Part shown: positions 2,396-8,939 of the stretch, in pieces
Layout: every line of letters starts with the position of its first letter
Position numbering within the stretch: position 1 is the stretch's first letter
Made by a program: the position numbers and the translations under genes
Virus record (IMG/VR): IMGVR_UViG_3300006332_000090
Coordinates: 1 to 25,694 of that record
Source: a virus
Length of the DNA: 25,694 nucleotides
Reading direction: 5' to 3' (one strand)
Notes under the pieces: generated by a model
Told to the model about the DNA's origin: nothing
The model's input: the letters and a program-made list of their open reading frames with translations, nothing else
The model's database searches: none

Positions 2396-3988
2396 ATGGC
2401 AGCAACTGCTTCCTACGATAACGCAACCAAGATAATCACAGTAGCATCGGATGCCCTCCCTGCTCCTGTGATTCCTGGTGCGTTCCCTAATGACAATAAC
2501 CCTAATACAATACAAGAGAAGGATTGGGATCATGATTTCTTATACCGTGGAGGCACATTTGGAATTACTCGCACATTTGATAATAATGGATATACGCATG
2601 ATGGATTTGTTAGAAGAGCAACAATCTCAACAAACGATTTAACTCTTTTTACTGGTCCAAACCCTGATATTGATGTCAATGATGAGATAATGGTTGTTTT
2701 TAGTGATGGATTAAAGCAAAAATTCATCTTTAGAAGCACAACATTTACTTCAATTGATGGTGAATGTTGGTTATCTACCGATACTACACTAGATTTCATC
2801 GTAGCAGACCAAGCAACTACTCCTGTTAGTGGTACAATGGAGTATTTTGACCAAAGAAATGGAAGAGGTGACACTCCTTTAGGTCAAATTGGCATTGCTG
2901 GTAATGGAGTTGCTATTTTTAACCCTTCTGCTGGTGCTGGACTCAATCCTCCATCAGGTTTTAGTTGGGTTGCTGCTGGAGATCTCACTTTTGTCAACTC
3001 TGGAGAGGATAATTGTGGTGGTCACCCAGAACAATCAGGTCAATATCACTATCATGACCCACATTTCCTAGATTGTTGGAGAGCAGGGTCATCTATGGCA
3101 TCATATAATGATTATTATGGTGGTACTCAGTATAATGGAGACAATATTCGTCACCCAGACGGTCATTCTAAGATAATTGGTATAGCATTTGATGGATTTC
3201 CCATCTATGGACCTTATGGTTATGCTACACCATTCAATAATTTGAGTGGTACTAGGACAATGAGGACTGGTTATGCTGTAAGAGACACAGAAATAGCAGG
3301 AAGACCTGATTATGGTAATACAAGTGATAATCCTCCAGCTGGTACTCTTATGGAGGACTATGAATATGTCGAAGGGACTGGTGATTTAGACCTTCATAAC
3401 GGTAGATTCACCATTACACCTGAATATCAGGACGGTACATATGCATATTTCCTAACAGTAGATGAAACTAACACCGATATCACTAAGTTTCCATTCATTG
3501 TTGGACTAAAAACTAGAGAAACTATTGACACCACGTTCACCGTTGAGGCTCCTCCTGCTGGTGGTGGAGATGGTGGAGGTGGTGGAGTGGTACCAACCCT
3601 AACATTTACCTTGCAACCACAAAATGCAACGGTTAATGCTGGTCAGACTGCTACATTCACAATTCAGAAACAGGTATTACCAGAAGACGGACCTGTTGCA
3701 TATCAATGGTATAGATCCACTGATGGTGGATTCGCATTTGCTGCTATAACTGGTGCAACAACTGACACATATTCAGTTACTGCACTTTCATACATGACTG
3801 GTTACAAATTCCGTTGTAGGATTGCTGGACCTGTAGGTGCACCACAAGCTGCAAGTAACTCACCACTAGATTCTAATGCAGTAACATTGACTGTTGCGGG
3901 TGCTGGAGATGGTGGAAGCACTGATAATAGATTCGATAGTACCTCATCTACTATGGACTCTACACTACAAACATTTGATGGCACCTAA
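2396..3988 (+). CDS. Virion protein with YHYH domain and C-terminal Ig-like domain
   Basis: This is a 530-residue protein. Residues about 150-380 match the YHYH domain family: NGVAIFNP, then DNCGGHP, then GQYHYHDPH (Y217, H218, Y219, H220, H223), then GHSKIIGIAFDGFPIYGPYGY from G256, and finally NGRFTITPEYQDGTYAYFLTVD. YHYH proteins are mostly secreted bacterial or environmental proteins of unsettled function; the clustered His and Tyr suggest metal binding, but that is inference. A Gly-rich linker near residue 390 leads to an Ig-like domain at about 400-502 (ATVNAGQTATF, YQWYRS, YKFRCRIAG) and a short Ser/Thr/Asp tail. The N-terminal 150 residues are not recognised. There is no signal peptide, as expected for a virion component assembled in the cytoplasm. 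The gene lies 14 bp after the previous one and has no clear Shine-Dalgarno sequence. The neighbouring fibre-like genes suggest it is displayed on the tail or baseplate. Confidence 0.85.
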   Translation: MAATASYDNATKIITVASDALPAPVIPGAFPNDNNPNTIQEKDWDHDFLYRGGTFGITRTFDNNGYTHDGFVRRATISTNDLTLFTGPNPDIDVNDEIMVVFSDGLKQKFIFRSTTFTSIDGECWLSTDTTLDFIVADQATTPVSGTMEYFDQRNGRGDTPLGQIGIAGNGVAIFNPSAGAGLNPPSGFSWVAAGDLTFVNSGEDNCGGHPEQSGQYHYHDPHFLDCWRAGSSMASYNDYYGGTQYNGDNIRHPDGHSKIIGIAFDGFPIYGPYGYATPFNNLSGTRTMRTGYAVRDTEIAGRPDYGNTSDNPPAGTLMEDYEYVEGTGDLDLHNGRFTITPEYQDGTYAYFLTVDETNTDITKFPFIVGLKTRETIDTTFTVEAPPAGGGDGGGGGVVPTLTFTLQPQNATVNAGQTATFTIQKQVLPEDGPVAYQWYRSTDGGFAFAAITGATTDTYSVTALSYMTGYKFRCRIAGPVGAPQAASNSPLDSNAVTLTVAGAGDGGSTDNRFDSTSSTMDSTLQTFDGT

Positions 3989-4011: not shown

Positions 4012-5493
4012 ATGGCAAAGCAAACCCTAGCAATTGGATCGTCGGCAAACGATGGGACTGGAGACAGTCTAAGAGATGGTGCTATTAAATTGAATAGCGT
4101 CATTGATGAGTTGTATACTAATCTCGGTAACGATACCAATTTACAAATCAACGTTGGCACTCCAGCTCAGGATCAACTACTTAAGTGGAATGGTGCTCAG
4201 TTTGCTGAGGGGTCATTTAATAAGTTTACAGAAGATGTAGACGTTGGTGGTCATAAAATCATATCAGCAAACAATGGTGATATAGCAATCCAAGCAAATG
4301 GCAGTGGAGATATTCATCTCTGGGCTGGTGGCACAGGATCTGCTTTAACATATATTGATGGTGCTGATGGTAAACTAAAATATAGTAATCACTTCCCTAC
4401 AACTGGTGATCTCCCCGATGCTGTTACTCATCATGGTATGTTTGCATATGTATCTGGTGATGGAGCAGCTAGATATGCTACTAGTAGTGGTTGGAAGAAG
4501 ATTATAGGTGAGGATCACAGTCTTGGTGATCTTGGCGACGTAGATATGACAGTAGGAGGAGGTCCTAGTGATGGTCAAGTTATTAAGTGGAATGCTGGCA
4601 ACAGTGCATGGGAGCCTGCAAATGATGATTCTTCGGGTGGAGGAGGTGGTGGCACCACTCAAAATCTATTTGAAGGATTCACTGCTGACACTGGCAGTAC
4701 TACTGCTAGTGCTGCTACTGATGTCCTTACAGTTGCGGGAGGCACTGAAATCTCGACTGCAATCGTCGGAGACACCCTCACAATAAACATGACAGGGGCA
4801 TTGGGTGATGCAAACCAAAATGCCTACGGAGTAATAGGAAGTGACTCAGGAAACAAAACCGCAAGCAGTACGACTGCTACTATTAACCTCATTGGTGGGA
4901 CTGGTATTAGTACTGCTGTTAATGGAGATAATCTCACAATTACAAATGACTCTCCTAATGTAGAGCAAGTAACGTATAGGACAGTAACTGGAGACAGTGG
5001 TACTACAACTGCTGCCCTCGCAACATCCTCTCTTAGTGTCGCTGGTGGCCAGGGTGTAACAACTGCTGTAACTTCAAACACAGTAACGGTTAACGCAGAT
5101 GTATACATTTCTAACACTGCACAAGAAAATAACAATCTTATTCATAATGGTACTTCTTGGGATGCCACAGTATCACCTACAGTAGGATTTAATTTCACTG
5201 GACCTAACAATAGTGTTTACAGAGTAGCAGGTGGTGGTGTCGATCCTTCTACAGATAACCCAACAATATATGTCTATAGAGGATTTACATACAGGTTGAA
5301 TAATACTACAACAGCAGCACACCCTCTTGCTCTCAGACAGACAGCAGGTGGTACAGCAGTGACTGAAGGAGTAACAGGAGACCAAGAATCAGTCCAGTAT
5401 TGGACAGTCCCAATGGATCTAGCAGCTGGTACAACTTATGTTTACCAGTGCACAATGCATCCAGCAATGAAAGGTGATCTGGTAGTAGTATGA
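4012..5493 (+). CDS. Fibre-like virion protein with C-terminal cupredoxin-like (type-1 copper) domain
   Basis: This is a 493-residue protein. The N-terminus (SSANDGTGDSLRDGAIKLN) has the ANDGTGD-type start common in marine phage fibre proteins. Next comes a domain containing QVIKWNAGNSAWEP and a poly-Gly linker at about 210. Three repeats of about 40-50 residues follow at about 224-360, each with a SGxxTA motif and then GGxGIxTAVxxDxLTI. The last hundred residues resemble a cupredoxin: a GFTYRLNN strand, AAHPLAL (H437), and the terminal YQCTMHPAMKGDLVVV (C480, H483, M486). From memory, the Cys-x2-His-x2-Met spacing and the following strand match amicyanin. C480 is the only cysteine in the protein, which favours a ligand over a disulphide role. 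Electron transfer is not shown; the fold might serve only as an adhesive or stability domain. The stop overlaps the next start by four bases (ATGA), so the two genes are probably translationally coupled. Confidence 0.85.
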   Translation: MAKQTLAIGSSANDGTGDSLRDGAIKLNSVIDELYTNLGNDTNLQINVGTPAQDQLLKWNGAQFAEGSFNKFTEDVDVGGHKIISANNGDIAIQANGSGDIHLWAGGTGSALTYIDGADGKLKYSNHFPTTGDLPDAVTHHGMFAYVSGDGAARYATSSGWKKIIGEDHSLGDLGDVDMTVGGGPSDGQVIKWNAGNSAWEPANDDSSGGGGGGTTQNLFEGFTADTGSTTASAATDVLTVAGGTEISTAIVGDTLTINMTGALGDANQNAYGVIGSDSGNKTASSTTATINLIGGTGISTAVNGDNLTITNDSPNVEQVTYRTVTGDSGTTTAALATSSLSVAGGQGVTTAVTSNTVTVNADVYISNTAQENNNLIHNGTSWDATVSPTVGFNFTGPNNSVYRVAGGGVDPSTDNPTIYVYRGFTYRLNNTTTAAHPLALRQTAGGTAVTEGVTGDQESVQYWTVPMDLAAGTTYVYQCTMHPAMKGDLVVV

Positions 5494-7403: not shown

Positions 7404-8939
7404 ATGGCGTTACTTACCGACCAATTTAGAATCTTTACTGCCGAAAGGTTTAGGAAAGCACTTGAAGGACCAGATCCTACGCAGTCTGACCTGTTGGCAG
7501 GTAGTGCTAGAGATCGTCTTTATGTGTTCATAGGCAGACCCCAACCTTGGGATAATGAGAATGCACCTCCAGACCCAGTAGATTCATTCCAAGAATTTGC
7601 GGATGACTATTCGGACATGATCTCCTTGAAGAGAGTGTTAGCAAATGACACTATTCAGGTTATCAGGCGTACCGACTGGATTCCCCCAGAGCAAACAACT
7701 GGTGGATTGGGTTATGTTTATGATATGTATCGCCATGATTACTCCTCGACTAAAACTGCATCATCGGGTGCGACTAAACTTTACGACGCTGACTTCTACG
7801 TTGTTAACTCGTCCTATCAAACCTATAAGTGCATTTACAACGGGACATCTCCTTCTGATCCTAACGGTAAACCTTCTACTGTTGAGCCCACTGGGACATC
7901 AACATCTATCATCACGACTGCTGATGGCTACCGTTGGAAGTATATGTATACGATCCCTGTTGGTCAAGTCTTAAAATTCTTCTCCAACGAGTATATGCCT
8001 GTGCTTGAGGATACTGCTGTTGTAGCAGATGCTATTGGTGGAGAGATTGATACTATTATCATTGGATCATCTGGTAGTGGTTATAATAATGGTACATATG
8101 AAAACGTCCCTATTAAAGGAGACGGTGTAGGTGGTAGAGTCTCACTTGTTGTAGATGGTGGTAGAATTGCTTCTGCTACTGTGACATCTGGTGGATCTGG
8201 ATACACCTTTGGTAAAGTAATTATTGATGAAGTCAACGGTATTGGTGCTGGAACAGGTACTGGTGGTAGCGTTGAAGTTGTAATACCTCCATCGATGGGA
8301 CATGGTGCATCACCAGCAACTGAGTTGGGTGGTTTCCGTGTGATGATCAACACAAAGTTCACCTACGATGAAGGATCTGGTGACTTCCCAACTGATAACG
8401 ACTACCGTCGTATTGGTTTGGTAATTAATCCTAACAAGTTTGGTACTCAAGAGTTAACCTCAGATTTAACATTGAGTGCAACAAAAGCGTCTATCTTTGC
8501 ACCTACGTTTACTGGTAACTTCCAAACAGATGAGATTATCACACAATCTCGTACTGTAGGTGGACAGCAGGTAACAGCAAGAGGACGTGTCATATCATGG
8601 AATAGTACTACTAAGGTACTTAAATATTATCAGAATAGAGTTGATGGTATCTTCCCTGAATTTACTGGTAACCTAATCGAGTTTGAAGGTGGTAACCCCA
8701 TAGTAGGTGCAACCTCTGGTGCATCTGCTGACCCAGATATTAACTTCCCAATTGTTTCAGGATCCTCCACGAGGGTTATAAACAACGCAGAATATGATCT
8801 AGGTATGGCGTTCACTAATGGTTATGCAAAAGCAGAAGTAGATCCTAACTCAGGTGACGTTATCTACATAGATAACAGAGGAGCAATCACTCGTGCTGGT
8901 GACCAGATAGAGGATATCAAAATCGTAATCGAGTTCTAA
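7404..8939 (+). CDS. gp8: Baseplate wedge protein, T4 gp8-like, with insertions
   Basis: T4 gp8 is a baseplate wedge component that dimerises and contacts gp6, gp7 and gp10. This 511-residue protein matches T4 gp8 (334 residues, compared from memory) in order along its length. FIGRPQPWDNENAPPDPVDS at 42-61 matches FGRSEPW...PYPTDS. DMISLKRVLANDTIQVIRRTDW at 71-92 aligns with the T4 stretch ending in PRRDW. YKCI at 141 matches YRCL. ADGYRWKYMYTIP at 173-185 matches GDGYVWEYLFEIP. RRIGLVINPN at 335-344 matches RQISIITNP. The end, VIYIDNRGAITRAGDQIEDI, matches MIYMENRPPI...DQTEEI. The extra length lies mainly in two stretches: about 212-300, with two GxGY repeats, and about 370-455, with an SGA-type hairpin (VGATSGASADP). 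Both modules also occur in neighbouring proteins. The start follows a consensus late promoter. Confidence 0.9.
   Translation: MALLTDQFRIFTAERFRKALEGPDPTQSDLLAGSARDRLYVFIGRPQPWDNENAPPDPVDSFQEFADDYSDMISLKRVLANDTIQVIRRTDWIPPEQTTGGLGYVYDMYRHDYSSTKTASSGATKLYDADFYVVNSSYQTYKCIYNGTSPSDPNGKPSTVEPTGTSTSIITTADGYRWKYMYTIPVGQVLKFFSNEYMPVLEDTAVVADAIGGEIDTIIIGSSGSGYNNGTYENVPIKGDGVGGRVSLVVDGGRIASATVTSGGSGYTFGKVIIDEVNGIGAGTGTGGSVEVVIPPSMGHGASPATELGGFRVMINTKFTYDEGSGDFPTDNDYRRIGLVINPNKFGTQELTSDLTLSATKASIFAPTFTGNFQTDEIITQSRTVGGQQVTARGRVISWNSTTKVLKYYQNRVDGIFPEFTGNLIEFEGGNPIVGATSGASADPDINFPIVSGSSTRVINNAEYDLGMAFTNGYAKAEVDPNSGDVIYIDNRGAITRAGDQIEDIKIVIEF

Follow-up and report, generated by a model that had tools for sequence, protein, structure and literature searches.

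A predicted cupredoxin domain with a complete type-1 copper ligand set in the gp9-like baseplate protein of marine cyanophages

The locus considered here raises the question of why a structural protein of a virus particle should end in a domain that carries what looks like a complete set of copper ligands. The window, by which is meant the whole stretch of DNA that was analysed, is a 25.7-kb virus record (25,694 nucleotides) that comes from the baseplate module of a marine, T4-like cyanophage; its closest isolate is P-TIM40, with 77% identity and 26% of the first 25,000 bases covered. In the original prediction, made from the sequence alone, a full type-1 ligand set was proposed on a virion protein, and this proposal is now supported by the predicted fold, by structure searches, by alignment with amicyanin and by the invariance of the ligands. 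The best explanation as a whole, and a likely one given the model and the sequence comparisons, is that the C-terminal ~118 residues of the gp9-like protein fold into a cupredoxin domain whose type-1 copper site is intact and would presumably bind a metal ion.

The gp9-like protein and its baseplate operon

The 493-residue protein encoded on the plus strand at positions 4012..5493 is a gp9-like baseplate wedge or tail-fibre-connector protein, as indicated by its matches to the Pfam family T4_gp9_10_N (37 bits, cut-off 25) and to PHROG 677 (E 8.7e-132, in three stretches), a family named 'baseplate wedge tail fiber protein connector'. The Pfam match defines a T4 gp9/gp10-like N-terminal domain at residues 3-73 (4018..4230, plus strand), and the similarity of the protein to T4 structures is weak, with E values of 2.4e-4 to 3.5e-4 for gp10 and 0.0024 for gp9. 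The cupredoxin domain alone also matches PHROG 677 (E 1.9e-38, profile positions 290-409 of 412), and the window protein covers both ends of the profile of this cyanophage gp9 family, cupredoxin domain included, but the family is named for its baseplate role and the copper domain is absent from its name. What had been predicted to be a fibre-like protein is thus not a generic fibre: T4_gp9_10_N and PHROG 677 assign it to the baseplate. Many of the ~300 matched cyanophage records are annotated 'baseplate wedge tail fiber connector', and the annotation of S-ShM2 (L158:2097-3339) splits gp9 into two overlapping genes that share the name 'connector', the second of which contains the cupredoxin domain.

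The gene assigned by sequence as gp8-like (7404..8939, plus strand; Pfam Phage-Gp8, PHROG 438), downstream of gp9, confirms the baseplate operon, and the presence of the gp9/10 N-terminal domain in a baseplate operon with gp8 is the likeness of this protein to T4 gp9. Directly upstream of gp9 lies a 530-residue YHYH-domain virion protein (2396..3988, plus strand; Pfam YHYH E 4.6e-35; PHROG 25852, virion structural protein), which is a possible second metal site. This protein and the other upstream virion protein (3-2381) have weak Ig-like matches near their C-termini, and PHROGs 613, 3995, 4069 and 27200 are common to both.

An orthologue of the window protein occurs in virus particles. S-SZBM1_206, which is the protein at L149 carrying this domain, is a 498-residue virion protein identified by mass spectrometry with 24.9% coverage and nine peptides, which may lie inside or outside the cupredoxin domain (Rong et al. 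2022, PMC9146016). In the same paper S-SZBM1_206 is described as a baseplate wedge protein, and 'tail fiber connector' is the name of S-SZBM1_203; S-SZBM1 is stated to have no long tail fibres, and S-WAM1, P-RSM6 and P-TIM40 are reported to be without them (PMC9146016). These four phages are among the closest isolates of the window by domain, P-TIM40 also by DNA, and this reported lack of long tail fibres is a difference from T4 gp9; the domain, at least in these isolates, is therefore more than a socket for a long fibre.

Predicted fold and copper ligand set of the C-terminal domain

The domain comprises residues 376-493 (5137..5490, plus strand), as defined by the AF2 model, the Foldseek and VIA-align comparisons and the match to TIGR02657. 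Its predicted location at the end of the ORF stands, and its start is refined from position 5110 to residue 376-390, at about nucleotide 5137. The AF2 model of the last 118 residues, calculated from a 27-sequence alignment, has a mean pLDDT of 94.7 and a pTM of 0.85 and is all beta except for one short helical turn; its last strand, at domain residues 112-117, is the terminal strand (DLVVV) that had been anticipated. In the Foldseek search of the PDB with this model, rusticyanin is the top match (E 1.1e-5), and laccases, amicyanins, copper nitrite reductases and plastocyanins are also among the matches listed, for which TM-scores by query length of 0.42-0.56 indicate moderate similarity. Cupredoxin-fold names are found for 48 of the 50 Foldseek matches listed (the titles of 3cvd and 3cvb name none). 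With VIA-align 2, the comparison with the cupredoxin region of 2dv6_A, a copper nitrite reductase, gives a Z of 9.7 and an rmsd of 2.4 over 93 residues; a Z of 8 is reached by 22 chains, and 49 of the 50 matches listed have the cupredoxin fold by name or general knowledge, the exception being 3nji. The model thus has the Greek-key β-sandwich of the cupredoxins, predicted with confidence, and includes among its structural neighbours the amicyanins and plastocyanins to which it had been likened.

The four ligands are found at the predicted residues when the codons are read in the window DNA (all on the plus strand): H437 (CAC, 5320..5322), which is followed by P438, C480 (TGC, 5449..5451), H483 (CAT, 5458..5460) and the axial M486 (ATG, 5467..5469). 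As had been noted, C480 is the only cysteine of the 493-residue protein. The best PDB sequence relatives of the single domain are amicyanins, with an E value of only 0.017, and in this alignment the four residues pair one-to-one with the type-1 ligands of amicyanin, which bears out the amicyanin-type Cys-x2-His-x2-Met arrangement; the loop reads CTMHPAM in the window protein and CTPHPFM in the best-matching amicyanin chain. Two domain alignments were used in the comparisons: A1, of 27 rows, which excludes L067 (whose domain is cut) as well as near-identical loci, and the wider A2, of 26 rows, which reaches down to 31% identity to the window and excludes L142, L143, L144 and L146. The A2 profile matches amicyanin in the PDB with an E value of 6.9e-4.

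Searches against cupredoxin family profiles do find amicyanin and Copper-bind families, but all scores are under the curated cut-offs. The NCBIfam amicyanin model TIGR02657 matches the domain with an E value of 2.9e-5 and 24.4 bits (cut-off 110.2), and Pfam PF00127 (Copper-bind) matches the window protein with 13.1 bits (cut-off 21.2); weak PF00127 matches are seen for 25 of the 27 A1 rows at E 1 (best 0.0045) and for nine of the 26 A2 rows at E 0.1 (best 0.0048). A profile comparison with eight Copper-bind domains gives a probability of 95.9 over 27 columns, which include the Cys-His-Met loop and exclude the first His. Nine A2 rows, the window's own not among them, also match the plant-named family PF25489 (At5g54830-like domain; best E 2.5e-4), which may be related.

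Taken together, the predicted fold and the alignment would put the four ligands in their canonical places, and by sequence the His...Cys-x(n)-His-x(n)-Met pattern of a type-1 site is present in the canonical loops. The domain shares with the amicyanin and plastocyanin-azurin families (PF00127, TIGR02657) the cupredoxin fold and the H...C-x2-H-x2-M ligands in the same loops, but it is part of a 493-residue virion protein and scores below the family cut-offs, its homologues also have C-x4-H-x2-M and C-x2-H-x3-M loops, and its first ligand His is followed by Pro. In plastocyanin-type sites this position is an Asn, and in laccase-type sites it is the Pro of a His-Pro pair. Pro is found there in all 26 A2 rows, including P438 of the window, in place of the His-Asn of the plastocyanin/amicyanin type, so that this is not a standard plastocyanin-type site; since laccase-type sites share the His-Pro pair, the redox potential of the site may well be unusual.

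The identity of the metal has to be considered as well. The site could be real and yet be a purely structural staple that holds another metal (Zn, Cu(I) or Ni): both Zn and Ni can occupy cupredoxin sites in vitro, and in the cytoplasm zinc is more readily available. The chemistry of a Cys-His-His-Met set favours copper, however, and a staple of another metal is regarded as a minority possibility.

Conservation and distribution of the domain

All four ligands are invariant in the 27 rows of A1 and in the 26 rows of A2. Because the other search patterns partly contained the ligand Cys, the count of ligand retention was made on loci gathered with the N-terminal 120 residues only; these are the best 80 of 135 relatives, and therefore fairly close ones, having N-termini that are 73-100% identical (the domain-based set of relatives is the best 80 of 295). 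Seven of the 80 loci are cut by contig ends, five of them having ORFs that stop before the domain and two being cut within it, and the 73 complete gp9 proteins, which represent 58 distinct sequences, all have the full ligand set. The free loss of ligands that would speak against a copper site is therefore not seen among these gp9 homologues. Pooling the 51 distinct domains of these 73 proteins with the 26 A2 rows gives 77 domain sequences, which form 21 clusters at 70% identity; across these clusters 12 of the 118 columns show no variation, the four ligand columns included; if columns could be treated as random, which is not the case, the chance of this would be 6.5e-5. His and Met residues at other positions do vary in the 77 sequences. 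The loop spacings are (2,2), (4,2) and (2,3) in 62, 14 and one of the 77, with C, H and M kept in all, and the ligand codons differ synonymously (CAC/CAT and TGC/TGT) across 52 distinct DNAs. As the invariance persists through three spacings and through synonymous codon variation, it indicates selection on the ligand residues themselves.

This bears on the suggestion, also made in the original prediction, that the domain is a stable adhesive β-sandwich that simply kept its ligands by descent and holds no metal. The fold itself tolerates an empty site, because five related copies in other cyanophage virion proteins (L262, L266, L267, the first copy of L298 and the second copy of L297) persist without Cys-His-Met. 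However, such a metal-free relic is hard to reconcile with the retention of the set in 73/73 complete gp9 proteins and 26/26 diverse A2 rows in which other His and Met residues vary, and with the observation that 60 of the 73 proteins contain no Cys besides the ligand, and it is now considered very unlikely. As judged from the sequences, loss of the ligands is tolerated in other virion proteins and is seen in none of the gp9 proteins examined.

Further diverged copies of the domain in cyanophage virion proteins retain the Cys-His-Met motif, and P-SSM2 and S-SCSM1 also have copies in proteins that bear the name proximal tail fibre. The diverged virion copy of P-RSM6 (L263) has C-x2-H-x2-Q, a possible change of the axial Met to Gln; in stellacyanin, Gln is the axial ligand. 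In gp9 variants of 641-645 residues (L025:2420-4354, L027, L030 and L031) there is a second, diverged cupredoxin-like module in the middle of the protein, which carries HPLMFST and YYWCHHHTG.

With tblastn, 298 phage records match the domain at E 1e-3 and 300 at 0.1, duplicate and near-identical entries included; of these 300 records, 298 carry the name Synechococcus phage, Prochlorococcus phage or cyanophage, and the other two that of marine virus. A profile search of whole records finds the domain in all 18 isolates searched, and in each of them the strong copy keeps the ligand set; these isolates had been picked by a C-terminal (16) or N-terminal (2) match, and L162 was left out (18 of 19 records). 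Among ten further records picked by name, strong copies are present in Syn9, P-SSM2 and P-SSM4 and only weak matches in S-TIM5, P-HM2 and S-RSM4, the latter being, for P-HM2, in ORFs of 1837 and 4458 aa. The records of T4, KVP40, HTVC008M and cyanophage S-PM2 have no match to the domain profile (A2 in the case of T4, which is a further difference from T4 gp9) at E 0.1. Because these four are unmatched and S-TIM5, P-HM2 and S-RSM4 are matched weakly, virions of this type do not depend on the domain.

The scan of genomes for the domain gave five loci (L142-L146), and no cellular source was found among them. L143 (NZ_RMVE01000006.1, 188,235 bases), in the assembly of Nonlabens xiamenensis 1Q3, is 99% identical over the 10,354 bases compared to P-TIM40 (188,632 bases) and may be a contaminant or have been carried over from a culture of cyanobacteria. 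The other four (L142, L144, L145 and L146) are cyanophage-type gp9 genes in three metagenome-assembled genomes named Euryarchaeota and Flavobacteriales and are probably misbinned phage contigs. That the stand-alone plastocyanin-like gene L300 shares a contig with the phage gp9 gene L144 was considered and ruled out, since the contig involved is 10,140 bases long and is not the 73-kb one.

Possible roles of a putative metal site in the baseplate

In the finished particle each site would hold one metal ion, most likely copper. In T4, gp9 forms trimers at the rim of the baseplate, six trimers per particle, and if the cyanophage protein is arranged likewise, which is among the least certain steps, its trimers would display the cupredoxin domain outward. 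The cyanobacterial cytoplasm offers little free copper, because of which the metal would probably be loaded after assembly, in the lysate or in seawater; given assembly in a copper-poor host cytoplasm, loading is uncertain. The metal may then lock or tune a module that contacts the host envelope, a contact suggested by the position of the domain; this is a tentative proposal, held at somewhat less than even confidence, and a metal-locked host-contact module is nevertheless the likeliest role, with a redox function and copper piracy as possibilities.

In a redox function, a working blue copper centre would pass electrons at the host envelope, or serve as a trigger that senses the redox state of the host, or act jointly with the neighbouring YHYH metal domain. 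The full type-1 ligand set is under selection, and YHYH has been predicted to be a metal-binding domain, as a metal-dependent hydrolase (PMC7824862). In the four other cyanophages scanned (L157, L150, L158 and L163), the protein downstream of gp9 matches YHYH (PF14240) in two stretches, and in L157:3367-6354 a cupredoxin-like module at residues 315-455 lies between the two YHYH parts (~174-303 and 464-517, by homology to the YHYH protein of the window). However, this inserted module has diverged and its ligands are not kept in all copies, no electron donor or acceptor is known, and the His-Pro variation would change the character of the site. The model of the window's own YHYH domain is of low confidence (pLDDT 31.2). 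Adsorption of S-PM2 is light-dependent, and yet S-PM2 has no match to the domain. Adsorption of P-HM2 is likewise described as reduced in the dark (PMC7112961); no link between the domain and light-dependent adsorption is claimed, as P-HM2 has no strong copy and S-PM2 none. On balance a redox role is thought unlikely.

It is also conceivable that copper held by the virion is recognised by copper-uptake receptors of the host, by analogy with the iron Ferrojan horse that has been proposed. A precedent is provided by the HxH iron sites in the tail fibres of T4 (gp37, solved) and of a marine phage (alterophage R22Y, predicted) (PMC11705849), and the proteins that contain the present domain belong to the tails and baseplates of marine phages. 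Both are metal sites of phage tails, but the HxH sites hold octahedral iron in HxH motifs of fibre trimers (PMC11705849), whereas the window has a single-chain cupredoxin site. A type-1 site, moreover, buries its metal, Prochlorococcus is sensitive to copper, and we know of no cyanophage copper receptor. Such a Trojan horse function is, like electron transfer, considered improbable.

Compared with these alternatives, the metal-locked contact module is retained as the preferred role. More generally, the domain is conserved, and probably metal-loaded, in the baseplates of marine cyanomyoviruses, copper being the presumed metal. The cupredoxin fold and the gp9 family are each known already, and it is their combination in the cyanophage baseplate that was found undescribed: the full-text literature searched, in which few subscription papers are included, gave no report of a cupredoxin or copper-binding domain in baseplate or tail-fibre proteins of cyanophages or other phages. 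The one paper that did match, PMC9605863, concerns Borgs, none of the 15 papers listed out of 5,072 in a broader search contains the word cupredoxin, and 'copper' in PMC7029224, PMC3037559 and PMC9602691 refers only to an electron-microscopy grid.

Because two predicted metal domains are adjacent or fused there, a further reading can be formulated in which the baseplates are redox-active metalloprotein assemblies, with the blue copper of gp9 and the adjacent or fused YHYH domain acting on the host envelope at infection. This is a distinctly long shot, but if it were true the particle, given six gp9 trimers as in T4, would carry 18 blue copper sites, and a blue copper centre would be used by the virus particle itself. 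If metal is bound by the domain, whatever its role, the virions of abundant ocean phages would be metal ligands, which would bear on the attachment of these phages to their hosts and on the trace-metal chemistry of the sea.
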